DNA of 64,000 bases from Rubellicoccus peritrichatus. GTDB lineage: Bacteria; Verrucomicrobiota; Verrucomicrobiia; Opitutales; Cerasicoccaceae. The notes beneath the pieces were generated by a model. That model saw only the letters and a program-made list of their open reading frames with translations, ran no database searches and was not told the origin of the DNA. Made by a program: the position numbers and the translations under genes. This document shows positions 3,343 to 32,805 of this stretch, piece by piece (position 1 is the first letter of the stretch; each line of letters begins with the position of its first letter). The stretch lies in contig NZ_CP136920.1 of the NCBI RefSeq assembly GCF_033100135.1, forward strand, positions 3,405,001 through 3,469,000, read 5' to 3'.

Positions 3343-5946
3343 TTACTGCAATGTATGTATCTCGTTGTGCATTCCATTTAGAAAATCTTCCGTTTTGGCA
3401 AATCGCCACGTCAAGCCAAAGTCATCGCTAACGAGGATTACGGGATCATGTTTGCATAAGCTCAACGTATCGGTCGTCGCATCGTAAGTTTCGGGCCACT
3501 TGTTGATGTAAGCATCCCTATCGGCACCCTCCATTTGAGAAGTGAATGAGAAGTAGGATAAGAACAGGCGTCCAAGCTTATCCTGAGTCAGGCGGTGGTA
3601 GAAAATAGAGTATCGAGACCAATCTGGAACAACGATATCTCCCAACTCCACGCCATTTTGAATGATCGCCAAGGTGCGACGCATGGTTCCGTCTCTCCTA
3701 GAGAGGTCTCTCGTGGCCAAACACCATCCGTCCTGACCAACTTGGTCTTTCAAAAATCCCAAATATGTCAGCCCGGCGTCCCATTGATACTTGTCGTAGA
3801 TAGAAACTGCACTTCCCCAAGAATTAGTAAGAGAAGGGTCAACGCCATTCTGATCAAAGCCCAGGACGGGAGCATTTGTAGTGTATGTAAACAGTTCGTC
3901 TTGATGAGCACCGCTCAAGAGGATCAGCTTGCCGGCATCATCAACAATGAGAGAAGGCCCATTGTGATTATCCGGTGTCTCTGTGTATGGATTATCGCCA
4001 AAGCCGAGAAATACTGAATTAGACATTTGGCCGCTTGTTCGGTTGTAGCTGCGGAAATACTGAGGCGTTCCATCATCAATACCGTTTGGGCTTTCGAGCG
4101 TGCAGTAGGCGACATAGACGTAATCATCCGTTACGACCGTCGCTGGGCCGGCGCCTGAATGCTGAGGATTGAGGGACGGTTCCTCTGAGTGTCCGATTCC
4201 AAAATCGACGATGTTTGATTGGGTTAAGTTACCTGCAGCATCAATTTCAATAAAGAAAAATGTGCCTCCATAATACCGAATTATTAAGGGTGCTGATGCC
4301 GTCTCCGAATAGGTATCTGTGGGTTCTAATATGCTTGTTGCGGCGTAACTATCATTCGGTAGGGCGTAAGCCTTCCACGTTTCCGAGTCATTGGCCAGAT
4401 ATAGTAGATAGCTTTTGCCTTTGGCGACGACCAGTGTGTAAGTATTGCCCGCTTTGTCTGAAATGATACGAGTATGGGGTGACCACTGCGACTTGACTAC
4501 GTCTCCATCGTTTACGTTGTTAAATCCATTATCACGAAGGATCTGTTCGATTTTGTATACTACCCATCTACCGTCATTATCCAGTGTCTGTATGTAGCTG
4601 GGAAGGGTGTTGTCGCGAATCGTTGTGGTTCCTGATACTTTCAAATACGTCGTTCGAATCCAGGGACGATTTTCACGGTCAAAATAAACTTCTCCTGGCA
4701 TGAACCTTGGTTTATACCCATAAATGTCTCGCTCATTATTGAAGTCGGGCCCGTGAGCTACTGGATTCACGTCTGGCGTGAATAAGCTGTCGATAAGGAC
4801 CTCAGCGTCGTTGTGTTCAAAGTGAGAGGTTTCAATATTAGTGAAAGCGCGATCAAAGCCGTTTGTCACTACCGGATTTCGTAGCACTGTCTTACTGCCA
4901 ACACTTGCATACTTGTTGTAAACGTAGAGCAGTGATTGGTCCATGACGTTGAGCGTATCAAAACTGTCTGCAACGGGATAAAAGGTGCCATCTTTGGAAA
5001 CTGTATTCGAAGACAACAGCGTGAGTGAACCGTTGTGTCGATTGAAGAGCTTAACTGAGCCATCATTTCCTGAGTCGATGCTCCTCATGAAATCGTAGGA
5101 GATGTCATATTTTCGGTTAAGTTTTAGATCTAAATTGAAAGACTTGTATTCAAAACCACCGGTCCCGACGACTTCAACATGCTGATCGAAGCGATCACGG
5201 CGTAGTTCTACTACTGAATTGACAGCAGCATACTTGTTATAAATGTATAAGTAGTACTCGCCACTATTGACCTGAGGCGTTGTAAATGTGGCTTCTATTG
5301 AGTGCCACTGCCCATCTAAAGGAGTCGTTGTTTCAAGTAGATTGGTCCACACGGATCCGTTTCGATGAAATATCGCGACAGATCCACCATTAACGCTGGA
5401 ATTTACTCCCCGCTTCATGTCGCACGAAAATGTATAGGTCGTTTGGGGCTGCAAATACAACGTCTTTCGCTCATATGAAAAGTTGCTTAGCCCCTTACCC
5501 TTGACGAGCAAATGCTCTCCGATATCTAGCTCTTTAACTTTTGTAGTAGAACCTTTTGAAGACGAAACAATGTAAGCGGAGATTACCGATGTCTTCAAAT
5601 CAGCTGGAGCTTGAAAAGAAGTGATGAGCTTCGACCACTGTCCGGTAGACGCAACCGGCAGTGTGATAGCCAAGGTGTTTTGAGGGTTTTGTGCAATTAA
5701 GCTTACCTTTAATCCACCTAGACTGGAGGATACATCGCGCATTACCAAAGCTTCGACATGATAGCGTTTACCTCCTTCCAAAAGCGGTAATTGCGACTTA
5801 TAGACGTTTGTTCCATTACCTGGTGAGGTAACAATCATTCGATCTTCAAGCTCAATGGAAGTACCTGAAACGAGTGAGGTACCGAAAATTATGAACAATG
5901 CTGTTTGAATGAATAAAACGAAATATTTTAGTATGCAATTTTTCAC
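3343..5946 (-). CDS. Secreted BNR_4-type beta-propeller protein with three tandem carbohydrate-binding-like modules, candidate lyase
   Basis: A secreted protein of 867 residues with a Sec signal peptide at about 1-28. Residues 30-385 hold three consecutive beta-sandwich-like modules; the second and third share a YIYNKYA(A/S)V segment, so they look like an internal duplication of carbohydrate-binding domains. Residues from about 390 to the end look like a BNR_4-type beta-propeller: GEVYFDRENRPWIRT, DNHNGPSLIVDDAGKL, YHRLTQDKLGRLFLSYF and a final SDDFGLTWRFAKT. Ulvan-type lyases (PL24/PL25) share such propellers, with catalytic His residues, so a lyase or glycan-binding role is plausible but unproven. 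It is the first gene of a minus-strand pair with the sulfatase and diverges from the PL8-like gene at 6438, with an operator-like palindrome between them. Confidence 0.75.
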   Translation of the reverse strand: MKNCILKYFVLFIQTALFIIFGTSLVSGTSIELEDRMIVTSPGNGTNVYKSQLPLLEGGKRYHVEALVMRDVSSSLGGLKVSLIAQNPQNTLAITLPVASTGQWSKLITSFQAPADLKTSVISAYIVSSSKGSTTKVKELDIGEHLLVKGKGLSNFSYERKTLYLQPQTTYTFSCDMKRGVNSSVNGGSVAIFHRNGSVWTNLLETTTPLDGQWHSIEATFTTPQVNSGEYYLYIYNKYAAVNSVVELRRDRFDQHVEVVGTGGFEYKSFNLDLKLNRKYDISYDFMRSIDSGNDGSVKLFNRHNGSLTLLSSNTVSKDGTFYPVADSFDTLNVMDQSLLYVYNKYASVGSKTVLRNPVVTNGFDRAFTNIETSHFEHNDAEVLIDSLFTPDVNPVAHGPDFNNERDIYGYKPRFMPGEVYFDRENRPWIRTTYLKVSGTTTIRDNTLPSYIQTLDNDGRWVVYKIEQILRDNGFNNVNDGDVVKSQWSPHTRIISDKAGNTYTLVVAKGKSYLLYLANDSETWKAYALPNDSYAATSILEPTDTYSETASAPLIIRYYGGTFFFIEIDAAGNLTQSNIVDFGIGHSEEPSLNPQHSGAGPATVVTDDYVYVAYCTLESPNGIDDGTPQYFRSYNRTSGQMSNSVFLGFGDNPYTETPDNHNGPSLIVDDAGKLILLSGAHQDELFTYTTNAPVLGFDQNGVDPSLTNSWGSAVSIYDKYQWDAGLTYLGFLKDQVGQDGWCLATRDLSRRDGTMRRTLAIIQNGVELGDIVVPDWSRYSIFYHRLTQDKLGRLFLSYFSFTSQMEGADRDAYINKWPETYDATTDTLSLCKHDPVILVSDDFGLTWRFAKTEDFLNGMHNEIHTLQ

Positions 5947-6437: not shown

Positions 6438-9194
6438 ATGAAAAGGGCATTAACATTTTTTTTAGTGACTTGTCTTTGTATGGCTTTTCAAACACTATCT
6501 TTATTCTCAGATAGTATTGAAGATGAGGCGCTTATTGCTCAAAGAGTCCTCGATTATCGCATCAATACGGGAACATCCGAAGATGACAGCACTCAATGGC
6601 TGCTCAACAGCGTTTTGTCGAATATTGATCGCCACACTGAAACGGTTGAGGAAATTCTACTGGATACGGACAGATACCCCAATGGCTTTGTATTCAAAAG
6701 TCCCATTTTGCGGATCGGTCAGAAAAAAGAATTTCCCGAAAGAGATTTGGAGATCAAAGAGCTGCGTGACGCACTCAATTCTCTTCAATATCTAGCTCAG
6801 GCCTATGCGATGCCATCGACGACGTCTGTTGCGAATCCGTATTATCAAAATCTGGAATTGAAGGATATCATTCTAAATGCGCTTGAGCGCGCATATCAAC
6901 TCGGGGTAAACGAAAAAGCGCATGTCCCTCATTTTTTTCCAACCGAGGAGGACATTGCTTTTATAAAAAGCCGCCCAGAAGACGAAAGTCATCTTTCGGC
7001 GATTAGCCTGAGGTTATTTGGTTACTACCATACTGTATTGCTGATGGCAGATGATCTAATGGAGGCAGGTTTGCTCGATAAACATGCCAAGACATGTGTA
7101 CGTTTATATAGTCAGATCTTCCGAGAGATTGGTGAGCCTATTTACGGAATGAATTGCCCGGCGCCTGATCCTTCATTGACCCACTATGTTAATACTGATG
7201 AGCTGATTAAGTTTGAAGCCTATGTATTCCCATTGGTCGCCATTCTTATTAAAAATGGTATGTATTCCGAGGCGACAGAGCTGCTCCACGAGGTTAATCA
7301 AGTATTGGACCAGTCTCTGATGCCCACTGAGGCGTGGAATGGTGGTTTCAAGCGTAGTGGTCTTGGCTTTCATCACTCTAATGCCTATCTTCCGGTCTAT
7401 ACCGGTAGCGCTTTGGCAATGTCATCGAAGATGGTCAATATCCTGCACGGTACTGAATACGAGGTAAGGGAGGAGGTTTATGACAACCTTCGCAATGCTG
7501 CGATGATGGCGCGTGTAATCATGAATCGCTCTGTCGCGCCCGTATCGATTACGGGACGCTTTGGCTCTAATAATGTGTCCACAAATACAGCGAGCCCTTA
7601 CCTGATTGCTTTACTCTACCTAGCCTACCTTCCAGATGAGGAGCCAGATCGTGAGCTTCTGTCCGCATACGCCCGTTGGACAGACTCAGAAGAGGATCTT
7701 CAGGAGAATATTCTTCCGGACTTTCTTTACGGAGGCCGGTCGGCAATCGCCTCGTCGATGCCTTACGTGCTGCATGATCAATCTATAGAGGATCAAGACC
7801 TTTTAGCGATCAGCCCGGAAGGAAAACCGCAAGGCCACTGGGTGTTTCCTGAAACCTATTTGTCGATCCATCGCCGTGATGAGTGGATGGCATCAGTCAA
7901 GGGTAGGGGGCGCTACGTTTGGAATGCGGAAGAGGGTCCAGGGCAAAATGTCTACGGTCAACAAGTCAGCGATGGAGCTCTGCTTATCTACAGCCAGGGA
8001 AGTCCGATCATCTCACATGTAGGCAGTGGATATCAGCTCGATTCCGGATGGGACTGGTATCGATGGCCCGGTACTACAACAATACACCATCCTATGGAAT
8101 GGGCGTCCGGTGAGGAAGTCGCGCGGACAAGTGAACGTCTCGGGCACAATCACTACTATAATTCTGAAAAACAGCGTATCTTCAGTAACGAATCAATTGC
8201 GGGTGGAACCAGCCTCGACGGTCAAGGGGCCTTCGCCATGCGCTTCGTAGACATTCCTCTTTTTGGAGGATACAAGACCTCCAACCTGTCGGCTTACAAA
8301 AGCTATTTCTTTTTTGATAATAAGATTATCCTCTTGGGAAGCGATATCCGTGGTGGTAATCGTGAAGATCGCGTCAATACGACATTGTTTCAAAACTACC
8401 TGGGCAGTGATGCGCAGAATACGAACGAAAACTCGGGAGACGTAAAAGTTAATGGCGTTTCTTTTGATGAAATGTCTTCCATAGGAGACTTTGGTCAGTT
8501 CAAAAAACGTTTGAGGGGCCCTGTTACAATTACTGATGCTTTCAATAATGGATACTATATTCCGTACAACGAGAGAGTCTTTCTCAAAATGGGTGATCAG
8601 GGCAGCCTGCTCACTCAAGGTCAGCGTAGGGAGATGAGCTATGGCTACTATGCAACATGCTGGATCGATCATGGGATTGACCCCGAGGAAGATGATTATG
8701 AGGTCATGGTTCTCGTAAATGGCGCGAATTCGATAGATGATGTCCTGGAGAATCCGGATGAATATTACCGTGTCCATCAAAATGATTTTCGTGCTCACGT
8801 TGTTTACGATCCAGTATCTGAGATAACAGGCTACGCCATATTCAATGGGAAGTTACGAGAGCAGATCGCTGACGAGAGCCTTGCACTCAAACGTAGCGAC
8901 CGTCCAGTGCTTGCAATGACGCGTATCACTGAATCAGGTCATCTGGAACTGGCTGTGACCGATCCAGACATGGGGTGGTTGGAAGATTACGAAGTCGCAA
9001 CCTACGACCTCGTGGTTGATGGATTACATACGCGTAAATCCGTTCCCAGTCAGGTCACTCTAACCCTCAACGGGCAGTGGAATGGTGAGCTCAGCTATGA
9101 CCTTATTGCGATTGAAGCAGAGAGAGAAACAACGAAGGTTTCCGTTCGATGCTATGACGGACAGCCGACTCTTATTCAACTAGTCGAGGAGTGA
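6438..9194 (+). CDS. Secreted PL8-family-like polysaccharide lyase
   Basis: I start the gene at the ATG at 6438 rather than further upstream, because this gives a clean signal peptide (MKRALTFFLVTCLCMAF); the protein is then 918 residues. The layout follows PL8 lyases (chondroitin AC, hyaluronate and xanthan lyases): an N-terminal alpha/alpha toroid, then beta-sandwich domains. Around residues 305-320 lies NGGFKRSGLGFHHSNAY with candidate catalytic Asn, His and Tyr; SITGRFG near 370 offers the Arg. The C-terminal half has the usual FFFDNKIILLGSDI and TCWIDHG segments. The family cleaves uronate-containing polysaccharides by beta-elimination. The downstream PL8-like gene follows with almost no gap, so the two are co-transcribed. 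The substrate is unknown; sulfatases nearby suggest a sulfated polymer. Confidence 0.85.
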   Translation: MKRALTFFLVTCLCMAFQTLSLFSDSIEDEALIAQRVLDYRINTGTSEDDSTQWLLNSVLSNIDRHTETVEEILLDTDRYPNGFVFKSPILRIGQKKEFPERDLEIKELRDALNSLQYLAQAYAMPSTTSVANPYYQNLELKDIILNALERAYQLGVNEKAHVPHFFPTEEDIAFIKSRPEDESHLSAISLRLFGYYHTVLLMADDLMEAGLLDKHAKTCVRLYSQIFREIGEPIYGMNCPAPDPSLTHYVNTDELIKFEAYVFPLVAILIKNGMYSEATELLHEVNQVLDQSLMPTEAWNGGFKRSGLGFHHSNAYLPVYTGSALAMSSKMVNILHGTEYEVREEVYDNLRNAAMMARVIMNRSVAPVSITGRFGSNNVSTNTASPYLIALLYLAYLPDEEPDRELLSAYARWTDSEEDLQENILPDFLYGGRSAIASSMPYVLHDQSIEDQDLLAISPEGKPQGHWVFPETYLSIHRRDEWMASVKGRGRYVWNAEEGPGQNVYGQQVSDGALLIYSQGSPIISHVGSGYQLDSGWDWYRWPGTTTIHHPMEWASGEEVARTSERLGHNHYYNSEKQRIFSNESIAGGTSLDGQGAFAMRFVDIPLFGGYKTSNLSAYKSYFFFDNKIILLGSDIRGGNREDRVNTTLFQNYLGSDAQNTNENSGDVKVNGVSFDEMSSIGDFGQFKKRLRGPVTITDAFNNGYYIPYNERVFLKMGDQGSLLTQGQRREMSYGYYATCWIDHGIDPEEDDYEVMVLVNGANSIDDVLENPDEYYRVHQNDFRAHVVYDPVSEITGYAIFNGKLREQIADESLALKRSDRPVLAMTRITESGHLELAVTDPDMGWLEDYEVATYDLVVDGLHTRKSVPSQVTLTLNGQWNGELSYDLIAIEAERETTKVSVRCYDGQPTLIQLVEE

Positions 9195-9231
9195 AGTGCG
9201 CACGAACTACCTAAGTGATCATCTATTTGAC

Positions 9232-11946
9232 ATGAAAAGACAACTAGCGGCAATTGCCTTCCTTCTGCTTGCGAGCGGGCTTTTTTTTACAGCGTGTCAA
9301 AGATCAGAAGAACCGAATGTAACGGGATCTCCATCCGTTGAAAACATAGATGATTCCGACACTGCAGTGTCTGATGTGAGTCAAGTTTTTCAGCCGACTG
9401 ACACTCGAGAATGGTTTGAGCGACTAAGAGACAGGATGGTTAATAAACACATCGGAGGAGGCGAATACGAGATTAAGGAAGGGGAGCTCGGCTACGACAT
9501 TTACCTGAACTCGGTAAACGGCGCGAGACGGATGGCAGATTCAGCTCTATCAAACTTTTCTTCCTATCAGATCGTAGTTGATGGGGACGGTCAAATCGAA
9601 GATGCGATACCGCTTGAAAATAAGAATTTCAATCAGTTGATGAAAGATTTCTATGGTCTTGGCCTAGCACTCCATATTTACCCGACTAAAGAAACAGAAG
9701 CAAAAGCACGTGCCTTTATAAAATGGCTGCAGTGGGCAAATTTTCAACCCGAAGATATGAATCACTGGTATTTGGCGACCTTGGGCCGATCCTTCCTTCT
9801 ATTCCACGGTGTGTTGGATGATTCTGATTTGGATTTCGCGATCAGTCATCTGTTCGGATCCGAGCACGACGAAGGTAAAGGTCTCATTAATAAAATCATT
9901 CATATCGCGCGGAATGGATCTGACGGCTACAATGACGGTATGCGTAATGCCGATGTCCTGCGTGCCCACGGTGAATTTGTTTTTTGCGGCGTTTTACTTT
10001 TGCCGGATACGACCGAGGAGGAGTTGAGCTATAAGGAAGAGAAATGGCTGTCTGTTCTGGATAGCATCTCGTATGCACTGACACCGAGTCCTGGAATCCG
10101 GGGCTTCCTCAAGCCGGATTACACCGGATCGCACCATTTCTATGCCTACACGTCGGCATATGTCAGCGAGGCCGCTCTATCTTTGGCTGCGATGGTTCAA
10201 TTTCTAAAAGAAACGCCCTGGCAGTTTCGTGCTGATCAGCTCGAATGGCTGCAAGGCTATGTTCAAAATCTATTTTTCTATTCTCACCATGATCATGTCC
10301 CTCTTGGGCTATCGGGAAGGTTCTTCTCAAACGATTCGAATGCGAAGCGTTATGAATTGCTGCCAGTTGCAGTATGGTTGAACGACGAACCAGATCCAGA
10401 GCTTCTTCAGGTATTTGCGAACACCTATCGGGAAGATTTGGCGACTACGTACAATCCAACATATCGCCTGAATCAGGTCGGATTTCCCGCTTACAGCTTT
10501 GCCCTTGCAAAGAGCCTGCAGGAAGTTGAACGACTCGGAATTGAGCCCGAGGTGATCGAAGGTGTACGTTCGTATCCTTTCATGCCCGGAATGGCCAAGC
10601 GCCGTGATAATTGGGTTGCCTTTGTCAAAGGGATGAACAACTACTTTTGGAGCTACGAAGGGGGAATTACAGCTACAAACCCACAGGCAATTTTTGGCAT
10701 CTACAAGAGCCATGGAGCACTAGAGATTCGTTACATCGACCCGAAAAACCCTACTTCTGGAGATACTGTCAACCCGCTTCTCAGAAAAGGGATGGACATG
10801 AGTCATCGTTCGGGGGCCACTGTCCCTTATCGTACTGATGAAGATATGATCAACGACCAGGTTGACTCTCGCCTTCAAATAAACTCAACTGCAGTAGGAG
10901 GTGCCGAGCTTGACGAAGAGTGGGGTGTCTTCATGTTTGATCTGGCCAATACACCGAAACAGATGAAAGATCGCGGTTTCCGGGCCAGAAAAAGCTACTT
11001 CTTTTTTCGGGATTATATCGTTATGATTGGTGATAGCATAGAATCAGATGGCGAGTATCCTATCTATACGACTTTGTTTCAAACTGATATCAGTCAGTCG
11101 GACCCACAGAGTGACCCAATCTTTGTGAACTCGGCGATCCCTGTTACACAAATGGATTACGAGACGGTGGTCTCATCAACACTCAGAGGTACCGCGATCG
11201 TAGACACAGATAGTACAGGTTATTACATCCCGGCTGGGGAACGGGTAAATGTTTCAATAAAGGAAGTGGATTGGAGAGTGAGCGATTGGGTCAAAGGACA
11301 GAGAGGTGGCCCTGAGCGGCAAGAATATGCACTCAATTTGCCGTCGGAAAGTGCTTTCAGAGCCATCGCGTGGATTGACCACGGGCGAAACCCTGCTGGT
11401 AGTAATTATGAGTACGCCATCATGCCCGGAGTGAATTACGAGAAGATGGCTCAGCTTCGTGATCTCCAAGATGATGGTAAAATTTATCGCGTGATCGAAA
11501 ATAGCGACCGTGCGCATATCGTTTATGACAATATCCAAGGAGTATGGTCATACGCTCTTTACAGTGATTACGAGTCACAATCGGACAATCCTCTTAAAGC
11601 AGTCAGCATTGCGGAAGCATTGCCGCATGAGAGTGAAAATGTTCGCGCCAACGAAGGCTATGCAGTCATCCTCAGGACCGAGGGAGACCTGATGGATCTT
11701 TCGGTTAGTTATCTGGATCTTCGTATGAGAGAAGGATTTCGAGCTACATTTGGCTCAGGGCCAACTGAACGTTTGGATAATGCGAGCGCACCTATAATTC
11801 TATCAGTTACCGTAGAGGGTAACTGGCAGCTTGACGAAATAAATCCGGCTGTGGTCGGAATCGAAACCGAAGGAAGCACAACACGACTGCTCATACGTTG
11901 CCAAAATGGTATTAGCCAGAAGGTGAGTCTCTCAAGAGCATTTTAA
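9232..11946 (+). CDS. PL8-family-like polysaccharide lyase, lipoprotein
   Basis: Starting at the ATG at 9232 gives a lipoprotein signal ending LFFTAC, so the mature protein is anchored through its Cys (905 residues with signal). Motifs parallel the preceding gene at similar spacing: SHHFYAYTSAYVSEAALSL near 299, GLSGRFF near 360, KSYFFFRDYIVMIGDSI near 590 and AWIDHGRNPAGSNYEYAIMPG split across 712-732. These match PL8 landmarks, with candidate catalytic His, Tyr and Arg residues retained. The two lyases are clearly related in order but far diverged in sequence, which suggests old duplication or separate acquisition with different bond preference. One is predicted free and the other surface-anchored, a pairing seen in stepwise extracellular degradation. 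Exact substrate unknown. Confidence 0.84.
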   Translation: MKRQLAAIAFLLLASGLFFTACQRSEEPNVTGSPSVENIDDSDTAVSDVSQVFQPTDTREWFERLRDRMVNKHIGGGEYEIKEGELGYDIYLNSVNGARRMADSALSNFSSYQIVVDGDGQIEDAIPLENKNFNQLMKDFYGLGLALHIYPTKETEAKARAFIKWLQWANFQPEDMNHWYLATLGRSFLLFHGVLDDSDLDFAISHLFGSEHDEGKGLINKIIHIARNGSDGYNDGMRNADVLRAHGEFVFCGVLLLPDTTEEELSYKEEKWLSVLDSISYALTPSPGIRGFLKPDYTGSHHFYAYTSAYVSEAALSLAAMVQFLKETPWQFRADQLEWLQGYVQNLFFYSHHDHVPLGLSGRFFSNDSNAKRYELLPVAVWLNDEPDPELLQVFANTYREDLATTYNPTYRLNQVGFPAYSFALAKSLQEVERLGIEPEVIEGVRSYPFMPGMAKRRDNWVAFVKGMNNYFWSYEGGITATNPQAIFGIYKSHGALEIRYIDPKNPTSGDTVNPLLRKGMDMSHRSGATVPYRTDEDMINDQVDSRLQINSTAVGGAELDEEWGVFMFDLANTPKQMKDRGFRARKSYFFFRDYIVMIGDSIESDGEYPIYTTLFQTDISQSDPQSDPIFVNSAIPVTQMDYETVVSSTLRGTAIVDTDSTGYYIPAGERVNVSIKEVDWRVSDWVKGQRGGPERQEYALNLPSESAFRAIAWIDHGRNPAGSNYEYAIMPGVNYEKMAQLRDLQDDGKIYRVIENSDRAHIVYDNIQGVWSYALYSDYESQSDNPLKAVSIAEALPHESENVRANEGYAVILRTEGDLMDLSVSYLDLRMREGFRATFGSGPTERLDNASAPIILSVTVEGNWQLDEINPAVVGIETEGSTTRLLIRCQNGISQKVSLSRAF

Positions 11947-12250
11947 CAGAATTTAGTTAAATTGCTTGTCGTTAAGGACAAAATCCAGGCTACCTAATTT
12001 GCGAATTGTATCGACTCAAGCGCTTCATGTTGAGCGTCAATTCTGGGACTTTAGGAAGGGTTGCTTGAGAAGCGGTTATCAATAATGCATCCCCGGAGGA
12101 AAGCTCGCATTTCGTTAACTTGGGACTACCTTCAAAATCTTTATTAAAACTTGGATTGGGCTTAGGGGACAGTAATCTGCCTTTTAGATATCAACAGTGG
12201 CGTTCGCCTTACTGCGTCTTGGCTATAACAGGACACATCAACGTTGGTGT

Positions 12251-12266
12251 GTTTAACAGTGTAAAC
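12251..12266. promoter_or_regulatory. Imperfect operator-like palindrome before the PEP-CTERM gene
   Basis: GTTTA-N6-TAAAC, with core TTTAACAGTGTAAA, resembles the TTTACA-NN-TGTAAA sites but with two changes. It lies 101 bp before the start of the PEP-CTERM gene, within the 420-bp gap 11947-12366. I see no gene in that gap, only this site. It is weaker than the other three candidates. Confidence 0.4.
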
Positions 12267-12366
12267 TGAATCCCTGTTGTAATGATTGTAGACACTATTG
12301 ATACTATATCGTGTCTAAGCATTAATTACATAGTTCAACTCCAGCATCTAATTAACTCAACAAATT

Positions 12367-13302
12367 ATGATTAATATTAAAACACTCCTCGCTTACTCAA
12401 TTTTCCCCGCCTTGATGTTCTCATCGGCGAGTGCCCAAACAACTTTCTTTTCTCAGACCGCAGGTAGTGCGAATCCAGCATCCGGAGCAAGCTGGAACAC
12501 CGCCGCAAATGGTAGTGGTTCAAATGGAAACAGCGGAACTTACAACGCTGGCACGAACAATTTGGTTTTTCAGACTGGAGTTTCTATCGCTACGTCACGC
12601 AGTACCGTAGGATTCGACTTCAATGCGGTGTCCTATCAGCTGGATGGTGGTGCCTTGAGAAACCTCATTAACGAAATCGGGACTTTTTCCGGGGGTGACA
12701 TCACAGTTACTTCGAATGGAGGTACATTTCACCAAGCAGCTTCAGTCGGTGCAGGCAACGCAGGTGGCGGTGTAGCTGGCCCAAGCAGCCTGGTGTTGGG
12801 CTCTAATACAGTATTTCTTGGAAGTGCGTCTAGTGGTGCATCTGGAGTATATGATTTTGGGTTGAACGTCAATGGGGATGGAACTTTGGATTTGGGGTTT
12901 TCCAATGCAGCGACCAGCTTCGCGTTTAGTAATCTGTCTTCGGACTTTAGCGGTACAGTTCTCGGTGATACATTCAATGGCTCGATCTCCTTTGCTGCTG
13001 GTAATGGGGCACTTTCGACAAATGTTGTTATAGGTCGTGCGCTTAATGACAGGTTTGGCAAATTGGATCTCGTCGGAGATTTTTCTGTCGCATCTTTATC
13101 GATTGACGGTGAAAATATTGCAACAGGCATTTACACTCAGAGTGACCTAGTTGCTATTAACGCTACATATGCGGACAATCTTATAGATAATGGTGGAAGG
13201 GTGTTTGTTGCGACTTCGATTCCTGAGCCATCTCATGTAGGCATTTTGCTTTGTTTTACAGCTGCATTAGTAGTGATCGCCCGGAAGCGTGTTCGTAGCT
13301 AA
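12367..13302 (+). CDS. PEP-CTERM sorting domain protein, surface or extracellular
   Basis: A 311-residue exported protein with a signal peptide cut after about SASA at residue 23. The middle is rich in Gly, Ser, Asn and Thr and low in charge, with the repeating beta-strand texture of autotransporter-associated-strand proteins. It ends in a textbook PEP-CTERM signal: IPEPSH, a hydrophobic helix (VGILLCFTAALVVIA) and a basic RKRVRS tail. Such proteins are sorted by an exosortase (not in this window) and end up outside the cell, often linked to exopolysaccharide or floc formation. It stands alone between an operator-like site and a strong terminator, so it is probably a single-gene unit. Its role in the polysaccharide locus is unknown; attachment to the substrate is one possibility. 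Confidence 0.88.
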   Translation: MINIKTLLAYSIFPALMFSSASAQTTFFSQTAGSANPASGASWNTAANGSGSNGNSGTYNAGTNNLVFQTGVSIATSRSTVGFDFNAVSYQLDGGALRNLINEIGTFSGGDITVTSNGGTFHQAASVGAGNAGGGVAGPSSLVLGSNTVFLGSASSGASGVYDFGLNVNGDGTLDLGFSNAATSFAFSNLSSDFSGTVLGDTFNGSISFAAGNGALSTNVVIGRALNDRFGKLDLVGDFSVASLSIDGENIATGIYTQSDLVAINATYADNLIDNGGRVFVATSIPEPSHVGILLCFTAALVVIARKRVRS

Positions 13303-26989: not shown

Positions 26990-27265
26990 GCGCTCCGAGT
27001 CGAATTCCTCAAGACCATTCAACCCTCAACTTTGAAATCAACGCTCGCTCCCAGTCAGAGATTCTGTGAGCTTTGTCGAGAATACATCTTCAGGCCGGGG
27101 TCTCTTAAAACACAGGGGAACAACAGACGCGCCTTGTCTGCTTACTTCAACTACGTAATCAAGCGCGGCACCATTGACAAATCACCAATAGATCAGATCG
27201 CAGCCGCCGCCCCACCCAAACACGAAGCCGTTGCTATCCGAATCAGGAAGGAACTGAGGAAGTAG
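26990..27265 (+). pseudogene. Remnant of a tyrosine recombinase (core-binding domain)
   Basis: An open frame of about 90 codons reads ALRVEFLKTIQPSTLKSTL, then RRALSAYFNYVIKRGTIDKSP. The second part matches the second helical region of phage-integrase core-binding (SAM-like) domains, where a conserved RRALSxFFNWxxxRG..P pattern is usual. The catalytic domain (R..HxxR..Y) is absent before the stop at 27265. No good start codon is seen; a TTG at 27032 is the first candidate. Position near the intact tRNA end of the island fits a decayed island integrase. The identification rests on one short motif. Confidence 0.45.
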
Positions 27266-27362: not shown

Positions 27363-27791
27363 ATGCCTACTTTAACGATTAATGATGAACGTCTGGGCCG
27401 AGAAAAAGTTAAAGCCCTTACTCTGGAATGCCTAACTGAATCTCTGACAGTTCGTGAACTGATACGGCAGCGGGTTTATCAGGAGGTTCAGGATTACAAC
27501 CAAAAGTTGGAAGAAAGTAATAATAAGCCGTTACCCAAACTTTTGGTGACTCCGACGGATGAAGAAGCACAATTGAATGCCAAACCTAGCCAGATTGCTC
27601 CGAATAGGTCGAAGCGGAAAAAGAAGATTAGTTGGGAAACTCAGTTTGATCTGGCCTGCAGAGCGTTTGATTCCAACGGCTTTTTTGTGATCATTGGTGA
27701 TCGACAGGCGGAAGCACTGGACGAAGCATTTCAAGTCGCTGTCGATACCGAAATCACGTTTGTTAAACTTGTCCCACTTGTTGGAGGTTAA
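27363..27791 (+). CDS. Small beta-grasp-like protein with C-terminal Leu-Val-Gly-Gly, partner of DUF4132 protein
   Basis: A 142-residue protein started at ATG 27363; a TTG 63 bp upstream is an alternative. It opens with a strand-turn-strand and helix pattern (TLTINDERLGREKVKALTL, then SLTVRELIRQRV) like ubiquitin-fold proteins. After a Lys/Pro-rich, probably loose middle (residues 55-95), a second part reads GFFVIIGDRQAEALDEAFQV and TEITFVKLVPLVGG. That ending recalls MoaD/ThiS carriers, where the chain stops in Gly-Gly for adenylation and thiocarboxylate or isopeptide formation. The stop codon follows the second Gly directly, so no processing would be needed. It is 11 bp upstream of the DUF4132 gene. 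The gene is well supported; its role as a ubiquitin-like modifier or sulfur carrier is inference. Confidence 0.8.
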   Translation: MPTLTINDERLGREKVKALTLECLTESLTVRELIRQRVYQEVQDYNQKLEESNNKPLPKLLVTPTDEEAQLNAKPSQIAPNRSKRKKKISWETQFDLACRAFDSNGFFVIIGDRQAEALDEAFQVAVDTEITFVKLVPLVGG

Positions 27792-27802
27792 AGGAAATTG
27801 CC

Positions 27803-30397
27803 ATGTCTATTGTAGATAAAATTCTAGGTAAAGAAACCAAGGCCACTTCTGAATTCTCAGAAATGCTTCAAGCATATGTAGCTGATGCTGGAGCCATCAG
27901 TTACAATTGGATCGATGAAAACGAGACAAGAAATTTGGAATCTTATAAAAGTCTTGTAGGCTTAGAGCCAGAGAAACAGTGCTCGCTTATCGTCTTAGTT
28001 GCAAAAATTTTAAGTCGTGAAATCAAGAATACGATCAAAATCGATGATGACTCGTTAAGAGGTATTCCACATGCGAGATTATGTTTATTGCTAACGAATC
28101 TGTTGCGACGAAAACAGTTATTGAATGAGGAGCAATTCATTGAACTTTCAAGGTCGATCTTAAAAATTAGCGAACATACTTATCCAAGGCCTCACACATA
28201 TTTCGCTCCAACAGTGGAACGTTATCTGAAAGAAAATGGTGAGTTCTCAGCTAAACAACGGGAGAAGCTCGAAGAAATATACGACAATTGGTCAATAAGA
28301 GCTGGTGATGCGAGTAAATGGGCAAAGAAACTGGGTGATGTGATTTTTCAGGATGATCGTGTCCTGAAATTATCTATAGAACGTAATGGCGAAGTTTTTG
28401 CTCAGGAATTCCTTAATCGCTACGAAGCTATGGATGAGTCTGCGCAGAATGCTTGGGCTCGTCTGCTCGCACATGCTGCTGATTGCAATTCAGGAAAGCC
28501 AACAAAGAAATGGGAAAAGCGTGCGCTAGAGTTGATCCAAGAAGTTGGCGAAGATCGTTTTCAGGATTGTTTAGTGGAATTGTTACCTCTTGTTGACAAG
28601 CCAGCAACGCAAGAAAGGGTCATTAATTATTCACATGGTTACACTTATGCATATGACCCCATGAGCATTGTGGAACCGCATCTGGACGCACTTAAGGGAC
28701 TCGCTTGGATGACTGGTTTAGTGGATTGCGACAAATTAACGCGGATTATTGGATTTGTCGGTGTAAGTTCCTATAAGAAGATTCCTGGAGTCGGACCACG
28801 CGCAACGCGTCTTGGCAATGCCTGTGTTTGGGCTTTGGGAAATATTGGATCCGAAAGTGCACTTTCACAGCTTGCGATGATGAAGGTCCGTGTGAAGTTT
28901 GGGACTGCGCAGAAGCAGATCGAGAAGGCGCTTCAAAAACTGGCTGACAAGATCGGTGTGTCCACGGATGAGCTTCAGGAAATGAGTGTTCCAAGTTATG
29001 GATTAACGGATATTGGTCGCTTGGAAGAAAAAATGGGTGACTTCACTGCTATATTGGATGTTATCGGACACAAGCCTGTGCTGAGCTTCCTCAAGCCAGA
29101 TGGCAGCCCACAGAAATCGGTTCCAGCCTCGCTCAAAGAGAATTTTGCCGATGATTTGAAGGAAATTAAGGGCAGTGCGAAGGATCTGGAAAAGATGCTT
29201 GTTGCTCAAAAAGAGCGGCTGGATAACCTTTTTCTGCTTCAAAAAAAATGGCCAATTGCGCTTTGGCGTGAACGCTATTTGGATCATCCAGTTGTTGGCA
29301 TCTTAGCACGACGTTTGATTTGGACTTTTAGTGATGCTTCCGGAGTTTCGAAGAATGGAATTTGGTATGAAAATTCACTACAGGGACTAGACGGCGAAAC
29401 CATCGCTATCAAAGACGATACGACTGTTGAGATTTGGCATCCGATTAACAGTCCTACGGATGAAATTGTTCAATGGCGCAATTGGCTTTTCGAACATTTA
29501 GTCCAGCAACCGTTTAAGCAGGCTCATCGTGAGATTTATCTGCTTACAGATGCTGAACGCAACACTGGGACATATTCGAATCGTTTTGCTTCTCATGTAT
29601 TGAAGCAGCATCAATATAATAGTCTTTGCGCTGTTAGAGGTTGGAAAAATCGCTTGCGCATGATGGTTGATGATGAATATCCGCCAACCTATAAGGATTT
29701 GCCTCAATGGGGTTTAAGGGCTGAATACTGGGTGGAAGGCATTGGCGATGATTACTCAGATGAGTATGTTGTTGAATCAGGTGCCTTTCGCTATTTGGCC
29801 ACCGATCAGGTGCGATTTTATCGTGCCGATGCTCAGCAAGTAACCGCACATGCGGGTGGTGGTGGTTACGGTGCTGGTTATCATCAAGAATTGGAGGCAG
29901 CCTTATCACTCGATAGCATTCCAGCTATCGTCCTTAGTGAAATTCTACGAGATGTTGATTTGTTTGTTGGAGTTACCAGTGTCGGTAATGATCCGAATTG
30001 GTCAGATGGTGGTCCTGAAGGGCGACATCAAGACTACTGGCAAAGTTATTCATTTGGTGAGCTTGGTGAGAGCGCTCAACTGCGTAAGCAGATGTTGGAG
30101 TCGCTTTTGCCACGTCTCAAAATCGCCAAGCAATGTAGCCTTGATGGCAAGTTTCTCATAGTTAACGGCACGGTGCGCACTTATAAAATACATTTAGGCA
30201 GTGGAAACATACTCATGGAGCCTAATGATCAATATCTCTGCATTGTTAAAGCACCGACACGCGATAGGAAAAATGACGTCTTTTTACCCTTTGAGGGTGA
30301 TGGCAAGATGGCCATGATACTTTCTAAAGCCTTTCTACTAGCAGCAGATAACAAGATTACAGATCGAACCATTCTTACTCAAATCGGGAATAAATAA
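27803..30397 (+). CDS. DUF4132-family (MolR/YehI-like) protein
   Basis: A soluble protein of 864 residues. The first 480 residues are helical, with HEAT-like stretches (CVWALGNIGSESALSQLAMM). From about 490 it matches the DUF4132 domain known from E. coli MolR and YehI: DHPVVGILARRLIWTFSDAS, VEIWHPINSPTDEIVQW, QQPFKQAHREIYLLTDAE and YSNRFASHVLKQHQYNSLCA. The extreme C-terminus (FLPFEGDGKMAMILSKAFLL) is the tail usually found after DUF4132. The biochemical activity of this family is not established; MolR was named for an effect on molybdate metabolism. It has a good ribosome site (AGGAAA) and forms an operon with the LVGG-ending protein. No E1-, E2- or JAB-like gene is adjacent. Confidence 0.85.
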   Translation: MSIVDKILGKETKATSEFSEMLQAYVADAGAISYNWIDENETRNLESYKSLVGLEPEKQCSLIVLVAKILSREIKNTIKIDDDSLRGIPHARLCLLLTNLLRRKQLLNEEQFIELSRSILKISEHTYPRPHTYFAPTVERYLKENGEFSAKQREKLEEIYDNWSIRAGDASKWAKKLGDVIFQDDRVLKLSIERNGEVFAQEFLNRYEAMDESAQNAWARLLAHAADCNSGKPTKKWEKRALELIQEVGEDRFQDCLVELLPLVDKPATQERVINYSHGYTYAYDPMSIVEPHLDALKGLAWMTGLVDCDKLTRIIGFVGVSSYKKIPGVGPRATRLGNACVWALGNIGSESALSQLAMMKVRVKFGTAQKQIEKALQKLADKIGVSTDELQEMSVPSYGLTDIGRLEEKMGDFTAILDVIGHKPVLSFLKPDGSPQKSVPASLKENFADDLKEIKGSAKDLEKMLVAQKERLDNLFLLQKKWPIALWRERYLDHPVVGILARRLIWTFSDASGVSKNGIWYENSLQGLDGETIAIKDDTTVEIWHPINSPTDEIVQWRNWLFEHLVQQPFKQAHREIYLLTDAERNTGTYSNRFASHVLKQHQYNSLCAVRGWKNRLRMMVDDEYPPTYKDLPQWGLRAEYWVEGIGDDYSDEYVVESGAFRYLATDQVRFYRADAQQVTAHAGGGGYGAGYHQELEAALSLDSIPAIVLSEILRDVDLFVGVTSVGNDPNWSDGGPEGRHQDYWQSYSFGELGESAQLRKQMLESLLPRLKIAKQCSLDGKFLIVNGTVRTYKIHLGSGNILMEPNDQYLCIVKAPTRDRKNDVFLPFEGDGKMAMILSKAFLLAADNKITDRTILTQIGNK

Positions 30398-30582: not shown

Positions 30583-31017
<435 letters not shown>

Positions 31018-32004
31018 TTAAGCTGTAGTCCCCTGACAGGAGGAGCCTGCGCCGGCAGTGCAGCCGAAACAGTGTTTTCCTGTGGCAATGGCGGAATGCG
31101 ACCAATCATTGATATCTGTGTCCCAAAGATAACGCAACTCAGGGGCATTGCCGGCGGGTATGCCCAGCATTTGATTGAAGTCGCAGTCGTAAACGCGTCC
31201 TAAATGATCAACACTGATGGTGTCGCGGCACATGAGTCCATCGATTGCAGCAGGATTGAAATTGTCGATCAGCAATTGCATGTATTCTGCAAGTTTGCCG
31301 TTTTGCTTTAGGTAACTCTCAAAGCGGGAGATTGGCATGTTGGTGATGGTGTAGAGACGATCAAAATCGATGTCGAAATGCTCTTTCAGTTCTCTTTTGT
31401 AATCGTCTTCAAGCTCTTGTTGCTCGGGAGGTAGCTTGTCGCCGATGGGATTGTAAACTAAGTGCAGTGGTAGATCGGGATCACGTCCGTAGCCGAGTTG
31501 GTTCAGCAACTGAAGTCCTTCGATTGACGCATCAAAAGTGCCTTCTCCACGCTGCGCATTGACATTCTCCGGGCAATAGCATGGCATGGATGCGACAATT
31601 TCAATTTGATGTTTAGCAAGAAACTCGCCGAGATATTCGTAGCCTGATTCCAGTAGGATGGTGAGGTTACAACGATCTATAATGTGACGTGAAGGTGTGA
31701 GCGACTTGAGTCGTTCAATCAAATGTTTAAAACCTGGCACCATTTCGGGTGCGCCACCTGTTAGATCAACCGTGGGAATGTCGGTTTGAGCGAGCCAATC
31801 GACAATGCGATCAATCGTTTCCACAGACATGATTTCTTTACGCCATGGACCGGCGTTTACATGACAGTGTTGACAAGTGAGATTGCAAATACGGCCGATA
31901 TTCAGCTGTAGAATCGTGGGATGCTTGCGCCGTAAGTTGATACCAAGAGCATCAAGTGTTGAGGCAAATGGATCGGTAGCTAATGCTGTCGTAACTGAGG
32001 GCAA
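31018..32004 (-). CDS. arsS: Arsenosugar biosynthesis radical SAM protein ArsS
   Basis: A 328-residue radical SAM enzyme. The iron-sulfur cluster Cys residues are C40, C44 and C47 (ICNLTCQHCHV), followed by VDLTGGAPEM for SAM binding. The C-terminus has the family-specific CFGCTAGAGSSCQG block, with extra Cys for a second cluster or substrate. ArsS installs the 5'-deoxyadenosyl group of SAM on methylated arsenic, the key step to arsenosugars. It lies 33 bp downstream of arsM on the same strand, the usual pairing. It is one of the first genes outside the island. Confidence 0.92.
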   Translation of the reverse strand: MPSVTTALATDPFASTLDALGINLRRKHPTILQLNIGRICNLTCQHCHVNAGPWRKEIMSVETIDRIVDWLAQTDIPTVDLTGGAPEMVPGFKHLIERLKSLTPSRHIIDRCNLTILLESGYEYLGEFLAKHQIEIVASMPCYCPENVNAQRGEGTFDASIEGLQLLNQLGYGRDPDLPLHLVYNPIGDKLPPEQQELEDDYKRELKEHFDIDFDRLYTITNMPISRFESYLKQNGKLAEYMQLLIDNFNPAAIDGLMCRDTISVDHLGRVYDCDFNQMLGIPAGNAPELRYLWDTDINDWSHSAIATGKHCFGCTAGAGSSCQGTTA

Positions 32005-32037
32005 ATCGTTTCTAGATTTGAAGTAATCTTTGAGGAA

Positions 32038-32805
32038 TCAGCAGCAACCGGAATCTCCACAACAGTCTCCAGAGGCTCCCTTGGTCGCCTCTACGGTAAT
32101 GGCATGAAAGTTGATTCCTTCGATAGTCTGCCATGGTGTCTGGTCCAACTTCAGTGTGGCAACATTATCGAAGCCTGCTCCGACAAAGGCCATGAGGAAG
32201 GCTTTACGAGTCATTGCACCTGAAATACAGCCACTCCACAGTTCAGGATCGTCCTGCATTGCTTTAGGCACTTCTCTGTCACTGATGATATCAGAAATAA
32301 CAGCGCGCCCTCCGTTTTTGAGCACTCGATACAGTTCACCGAACAGCTTTTCTTTTTCAGCATTATCGACGAGGTTCAAGACACAATTGGAGACAACAGT
32401 GTCAATAGAGTCATCTTGGATGCCTGCTTTCTTGAGTTCTTGAATCTGTCCCTTTCGGAATTCGACGTTCGCATAGCCAATTTGCTCTGCCACAATGGGA
32501 GCGTTACGATTTGCCACTTCCAGCATTTCATCGGTCATATCAACACCAATAACTTTACCTTTCGGGCCAACGACCTGCGAGGCGATGAAGCAAATTTTCC
32601 CGGTGCCAGAGCCCAGATCGAGAACCGTTTCCCCGGCTTTCAGATGTTGGCTAGGGTCACCGCAACCATAATCTTTTTCAATAACTTCTTCTGGGATTAC
32701 TTCCAGGAATTTGGGGTTATAGTCAACTGGGCAGCAGAGGGCAGCTTCTGGAGCCTCGGCCGCTTTGGCATAGCGTTCACGGGTTGCGGTTTCTGAATCT
32801 GACAT
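32038..32805 (-). CDS. arsM: Arsenite S-adenosylmethionine methyltransferase ArsM
   Basis: A 255-residue cytoplasmic methyltransferase. The SAM motif VLDLGSGTGK lies near 61-70 and GVDMTDEMLEVA near 90. Candidate arsenic-binding Cys residues are in ALCCPVDY near the N-terminus, YGCGDPS, SNCVLNL and SGCISG, and the tail ends DCCGDSGCC. ArsM methylates As(III) stepwise and supplies the substrate for ArsS directly downstream. It serves detoxification and arsenosugar synthesis in marine microbes. No ArsR-type regulator is visible beside the pair. Confidence 0.93.
   Translation of the reverse strand: MSDSETATRERYAKAAEAPEAALCCPVDYNPKFLEVIPEEVIEKDYGCGDPSQHLKAGETVLDLGSGTGKICFIASQVVGPKGKVIGVDMTDEMLEVANRNAPIVAEQIGYANVEFRKGQIQELKKAGIQDDSIDTVVSNCVLNLVDNAEKEKLFGELYRVLKNGGRAVISDIISDREVPKAMQDDPELWSGCISGAMTRKAFLMAFVGAGFDNVATLKLDQTPWQTIEGINFHAITVEATKGASGDCCGDSGCC

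Follow-up and report, generated by a model that had tools for sequence, protein, structure and literature searches.

A Gly-Gly-ended ubiquitin-like protein and its DUF4132-DUF7737 partner form a conserved bacterial gene pair

A two-gene locus in Rubellicoccus peritrichatus

The window analysed here, a stretch of 64,000 nucleotides from R. peritrichatus (contig NZ_CP136920.1, positions 3,405,001 to 3,469,000, forward strand), lies within a single 5.8-Mb contig and contains a small gene whose product, a ubiquitin-like protein (Ubl), ends in TEITFVKLVPLVGG. The start codon of a second, larger gene (ATG at 27803) follows after a spacing of 11 bp (Table 1), and the genome holds one copy of each. 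Pfam recognizes two domains in the larger protein, DUF4132 (170 bits) and DUF7737 (139 bits), against a curated cut-off of 27 for both; the original prediction, which paired the small protein with a DUF4132 protein, was right about the first domain and overlooked the C-terminal second one (E 5e-41). To our knowledge, no biochemistry has been established for DUF4132, DUF7737 or DUF5724, and a literature search for DUF5724 or DUF7737 by name found no paper. Up to E 1 the Ubl matches nothing in Pfam, and it has no match in PHROGs or PADLOC. Further downstream, at window 31018-32805, a radical-SAM protein adjoins a methyltransferase with a Cys-rich end, by eye like the ArsS-ArsM arsenosugar pair.

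Table 1. Features of the Ubl locus (window coordinates).
Feature	Position	Strand	Basis
Ubl ORF, 142 aa, ubiquitin-like (predicted MoaD/ubiquitin-type beta-grasp), tail LVGG	27363..27791	+	ORF reading, fold prediction, conservation
Gln115 codon of Ubl; invariant in alignment A1, Glu in 5/5 non-GG relatives	27705..27707	+	alignments
Gly-Gly codons (GGA GGT) of Ubl C-terminus	27783..27788	+	direct reading and conservation
Ubl stop codon	27789-27791	+	direct reading
Partner protein DUF4132-DUF7737, 864 aa	27803..30397	+	ORF and Pfam
DUF4132 domain (PF13569), residues 434-614	29102..29644	+	Pfam, E 7e-50
DUF7737 domain (PF24879), residues 758-861	30074..30385	+	Pfam, E 5e-41; co-occurrence with Ubl
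Cys813 codon (YLCIV motif of DUF7737); invariant beside GG-ended Ubls, absent beside non-GG Ubls	30239..30241	+	alignments

An AlphaFold2 model of the Ubl, built on a 23-row alignment (pLDDT 74), places the elements in the order beta-beta-helix-(insert)-helix-beta-beta-beta. Its top VIA-align match is human MOCS2A, a MoaD-type molybdopterin synthase subunit (Z 8.3), over 78 residues that reach the last Gly. Nearly all remaining rows are ubiquitin folds, among them Caldiarchaeum ubiquitin (Z 7.5) and ubiquitin (up to 7.5). Foldseek alone returned nothing under E 0.001 with the same model. In a profile comparison with E. coli MoaD the Gly-Gly fell in register on Gly-Gly, a borderline result that 3 of 100 shuffles equalled, and as sequence profiles the two are too distant for proof. 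The structural model nonetheless strongly indicates that the protein has a beta-grasp of the MoaD/ubiquitin type and that its Gly-Gly end is free; this fold had originally been proposed for it.

A scan of species genomes gave 22 relatives of the Ubl (36-74% identity) in Verrucomicrobiota, Planctomycetota, one cyanobacterium and Methyloprofundus. Gly-Gly stands immediately 5' of the stop codon in every one of them (21 LVGG, 1 LAGG), and this end is therefore not due to chance; it is also kept by all canonical relatives found later, so the conservation expected of it is real. The most conserved parts of the protein are the helix RVYQEVQDYN and the tail FxxLxxLVGG, the invariant columns including Q43, F133, L136, L139, G141 and G142. 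Loss of Gly-Gly is confined to one divergent branch. The idea that Gly-Gly is a by-product of a Shine-Dalgarno sequence for the next gene was rejected on two grounds: GGAGGN is used by only 15 of 51 GG-ended sequences, and the Ubl gene lies 3' of the DUF gene at two loci (L007 and L008), where the order is reversed.

Partnership with DUF7737 and the link to stress

A DUF4132 gene or its remnant stands beside all 22 relatives, usually downstream and twice upstream; one locus shows only the end of the gene, at the contig start (L007), and another only a C-terminal fragment 2 kb upstream (L004). No other gene family recurs in the 22 neighbourhoods in a way that would hint at a third component, the sole further group linked in at least three loci being antisense-strand ORFs that overlap the Ubl and DUF4132 genes. 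Among 241 Verrucomicrobiota genomes the Ubl is found in 5, DUF7737 in the same 5 and DUF4132 in 13, and the Ubl is absent from all 8 genomes that have DUF4132 without DUF7737; E. coli, searched as a control, has DUF4132 and lacks DUF7737. DUF7737 occurs in 20 of 294 Planctomycetota genomes, and among 20 loci fetched the Ubl was adjacent in 16; the other four are L111, together with L108 (a contig end), L112 (a remnant of 57 aa) and L113 (a weak match at the edge of a contig). No homologue without DUF4132 was found in the samples. The proposed partnership thus stands as far as a dedicated DUF4132 neighbour is concerned, but the Ubl tracks the DUF7737-bearing forms rather than DUF4132 as such: its true partner is narrower, namely DUF4132 fused to a C-terminal DUF7737.

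The partners come in two types. Type 1, to which the window's protein belongs, has about 860 aa, and type 2, found in Deinococcus, Bacteroides, some Planctomycetota, a cyanobacterium and the genome G064, has about 1,600 aa and the order DUF5724-DUF4132-DUF7737. Further pairs are present in Pseudomonadota, Cyanobacteria, Actinomycetota, Deinococcus and Bacteroides. At one locus (L015), tandem DUF4132-DUF7737 genes (7391-9976 and 9980-12571) stand behind a single Ubl gene, which suggests that two partners may share a Ubl. We conclude that the Ubl and the DUF7737 protein form a real and conserved bacterial module whose two parts had so far not been linked.

One such pair has already been studied from another angle. 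By profile search, DRA0165 of Deinococcus radiodurans (DR_A0165 / SEP068184) is a homologue of the Ubl (E 4e-13). Like the window pair, DRA0165-DRA0166 combines a Gly-Gly end with an operon shared with a DUF4132-DUF7737 protein; DRA0166 differs from the window's partner in being the 1626-aa DUF5724-DUF4132-DUF7737 form. Both genes belong to the DdrO/IrrE radiation-desiccation regulon, and DRA0166 is up after mitomycin C in an IrrE-dependent manner (PMC8533742). Gamma rays and H2O2 both raise the DRA0165 protein, thioredoxin is pulled down with it, and the DRA0165 knockout is more H2O2-resistant while the complemented strain is more sensitive (PMC9650054). The authors of that 2022 study predicted a resemblance to MOCS2A (5MPO), so that MOCS2A is the best structural match for both DRA0165 and the window's Ubl; they called DRA0165 Deinococcus-specific, reported no RDRM and offered no discussion of DUF4132 (PMC9650054). 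We found an RDRM operator, GGTTATGCTATTTACATAAC, 82 nt upstream of the DRA0165 start codon (L115:4362-4381, plasmid record), which contradicts that report and agrees with PMC8533742. Nor is this type of Ubl specific to Deinococcus, as it has relatives in Planctomycetota, Verrucomicrobiota, Cyanobacteria, Pseudomonadota, Actinomycetota and Bacteroidota.

The original prediction also placed the pair on a genomic island next to a tRNA. A tRNA-Met gene (30583-30657) does adjoin it, but the island is not supported: no second copy of the tRNA-Met end was found, the GC content changes modestly (from about 0.48 to 0.41-0.45), and the only integrase-like fragment is an upstream 77-aa ORF (window 27032-27265) with weak similarity to tyrosine integrases (PHROG 1, E 0.056) that is perhaps an integrase remnant. 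The pair is absent from three genomes of the same family (G128, G164 and G229), which fits horizontal spread. This patchy distribution and the tRNA gene next door could also point to an anti-phage or conflict system carried on an island, in which the Ubl pair would be the sensor or effector. We consider that highly improbable, given that PADLOC has no match, that a tRNA-end repeat and a clear integrase are both missing, that no other defence genes recur in the relatives' loci, that no Ubl relatives occur in viral contigs, and that the Deinococcus data indicate DNA-damage and oxidative stress instead.

Coupled loss of Gly-Gly and a DUF7737 cysteine

The Ubls that lack Gly-Gly all accompany type 2 partners and end in LAGA (L106 and L107), LSG (L109), LAGRMW (L043) or LSGRLW (L119). 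In their partners the Cys of the YLCIV motif is replaced by F (L106, L107 and L109), N (L043) or A (L119). This residue, Cys813 in the window, is kept in every partner of a GG-ended Ubl whose column can be read; these number about 46 loci, a few re-fetched contigs included, and among them are the GG-ended members of type 2 (L105, L115-L118 and L143). Within type 2 it is the sole DUF7737 column that splits the GG from the non-GG set, and the splitting columns of the Ubl are the final Gly, Gln115 (Q to E) and one or two conservative hydrophobic columns. Of 371 invariant columns along the entire 1,600-aa protein, 9 split the full-length rows, and only the Cys holds among those that L109 covers. 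On the tree, Gly-Gly was lost at least three times independently; the data reject a single origin (p-AU 0.0006) as well as a grouping of L106, L107 and L109 (0.019). The Cys was lost together with Gly-Gly in all three independent pairs, a number too small for a sign test on the coupled loss to reach significance.

DUF7737 proteins without an adjacent Ubl were also compared. The Cys is absent in L111, in L120 and in L108, which is at a contig end; it is present in a second DUF7737 protein of Nonomuraea gerenzanensis (L122), whose locus has no Ubl and whose genome has its Ubl pair at L114. Taken together, the alignments strongly indicate that the Gly-Gly end and Cys813 are functionally coupled. 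That the two are lost together each time suggests that the Ubl tail acts on Cys813, for example as a thioester.

Two further features of the Ubl sequences deserve mention. Gln115 (window 27705-27707) matches by eye the position of ubiquitin Gln49, and it is Gln in the GG-ended proteins and Glu in 5 of 5 non-GG ones. The non-GG Ubls of Bacteroides (L119:4247-4666) and of G064 (L043:398-844) share the tail [SA]GR[LM]W, an ending that may be a docking tail.

Co-variation of this kind could also arise without any chemistry, if the Ubl were a regulatory or structural subunit docked on DUF7737 so that its tail packs close to Cys813, because a tail packed beside a residue would co-vary with it too. 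Processing genes are absent nearby, and the divergent branch retains the pair despite tails that are not activatable in the usual way (GA, GRLW, GRMW), which implies that the complex can function without chemistry. However, an exact terminal Gly-Gly with nothing after it, conserved in several phyla, is a signature of activation, and a packing contact neither needs a Cys as the switching residue nor explains why no other DUF7737 column switches. A purely non-covalent role is, in our judgement, unlikely.

Activation, mechanism and known systems

If the tail is activated, the activating enzyme would have to act in trans: no E1, E2, JAB or E3 is conserved next to the pair among the recurring gene families of the loci. 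An E1-like partner had been expected in the genome and is there. R. peritrichatus has two ThiF-family proteins, one of which is, by eye, a MoeB of 382 aa that carries a rhodanese domain at its C-terminus (G000:C1 around base 4053-4760; L059:1474-2622). In the short stretch seen, the gene for this candidate Ubl activator has no Moco or thiamine genes adjacent to it. A ThiF-family protein is present in 24 of 24 genomes tested, and a MoeB-type one in all but G064. That exception hinted that loss of the E1 tracks loss of Gly-Gly, which we rejected on finding that the non-GG genomes G509 and G526 retain a MoeB-type E1; for the same reason, the presence of an E1 allows activation in trans but does not discriminate.

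An activated Ubl need not be conjugated. The MoeB-rhodanese protein could instead make a C-terminal thiocarboxylate on the Ubl, as on MoaD or ThiS, and the DUF4132-DUF7737 protein would use the sulfur, with Cys813 as a disulfide or persulfide intermediate. MoaD is the nearest structural match of the Ubl, the rhodanese domain read by eye on the cell's own E1 could supply sulfur, the layout of a carrier gene and an enzyme gene resembles MoaD-MoaE, and the pull-down of thioredoxin with DRA0165 (PMC9650054) would fit as well. Against this, the neighbourhoods hold no conserved metabolic gene (neither MoaE nor Moco genes were found beside the Ubl, where only DUF4132 recurs), a patchy and stress-regulated distribution is unusual in a cofactor pathway, and no known sulfur-transfer fold was found in the partner. 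Sulfur delivery is thus a somewhat unlikely role for the pair.

In the predicted partner core (pLDDT 78), DUF7737 begins with a helix and a small sheet; the Cys comes straight after the final strand and is followed by a disordered loop and a pair of helices, a predicted order that would fit a UBC fold with its catalytic Cys after the sheet. Searches with the core gave no Foldseek match at E <= 0.001 and no sequence relatives in the PDB, and its best VIA match, a YugN-type protein (Z 6.5, model residues 197-337), is within noise. The VIA rows over the DUF7737 stretch, at Z 3.2-4.3 likewise within noise, include CENP-P, the Knl1 C-terminus and Mediator subunits, of which CENP-P and the Knl1 C-terminus are RWD (inactive E2-like) folds. 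An hhalign comparison of DUF7737 with five E2s, the UBE2D2 sequence among them being checked against the PDB, was not significant (P 0.11). On these models, an E2-like reading of DUF7737 is attractive and unproven.

A unifying model based on these data is a two-gene module whose Ubl is activated in trans. The MoeB-type E1 of the cell, for which the MoeB-rhodanese protein is the candidate, would adenylate the Ubl tail, which would then be handed to Cys813 as a thioester or react there as an acyl-persulfide. The DUF4132-DUF7737 protein would serve as an E2/E3-like carrier delivering the Ubl to targets during stress, and its N-terminal HEAT-like or DUF5724 part may choose them. We infer these steps, the E1 in trans, the thioester or sulfur chemistry at Cys813 and the delivery under stress, and regard the covalent chemistry as putative; for the proposal as a whole we would put the chances at a little short of even. 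More tentatively, DUF7737 itself could be a bacterial E2-like domain that takes the MoeB-charged Ubl as a thioester on Cys813, passes it to targets chosen by the HEAT-like or DUF5724 part and, in Deinococcus, is under DNA-damage control, one branch having shed Gly-Gly and the Cys to become a non-catalytic complex.

The concerted loss of the Gly-Gly and a single Cys names the likely reactive residue, and it makes the function directly testable in D. radiodurans, which is genetically tractable and harmless and whose pair is known to be DNA-damage-induced. If the thioester reading is true, the pair would represent a minimal ubiquitin-like pathway across several bacterial phyla.

Parts of the module recall systems already described. 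DUF4132 is common to the window's partner and to E. coli YehI / MolR, but E. coli has no DUF7737 in the control search, and no Ubl accompanied the DUF4132 proteins of our sample that lack DUF7737. A direct link of the pair to molybdate is not supported. With MoaD and ThiS the window pair shares the beta-grasp, the C-terminal Gly-Gly and the two-subunit layout of carriers; it differs from them in that its Ubl has no Pfam match and carries some 40-60 aa inserted after the main helix and before the third strand, its locus has no moa or thi neighbours, and Pfam shows no relation of its partner to MoaE or ThiG. In comparison with the bacterial Ubl conjugation operons (types 6a-6e of Iyer 2006, and BilABCD; PMC1779556 makes no mention of MolR), the window operon consists of two genes only, without E1, E2 or JAB, yet it shows the same arrangement, a Gly-Gly-ended Ubl encoded next to a large protein that has an invariant Cys.
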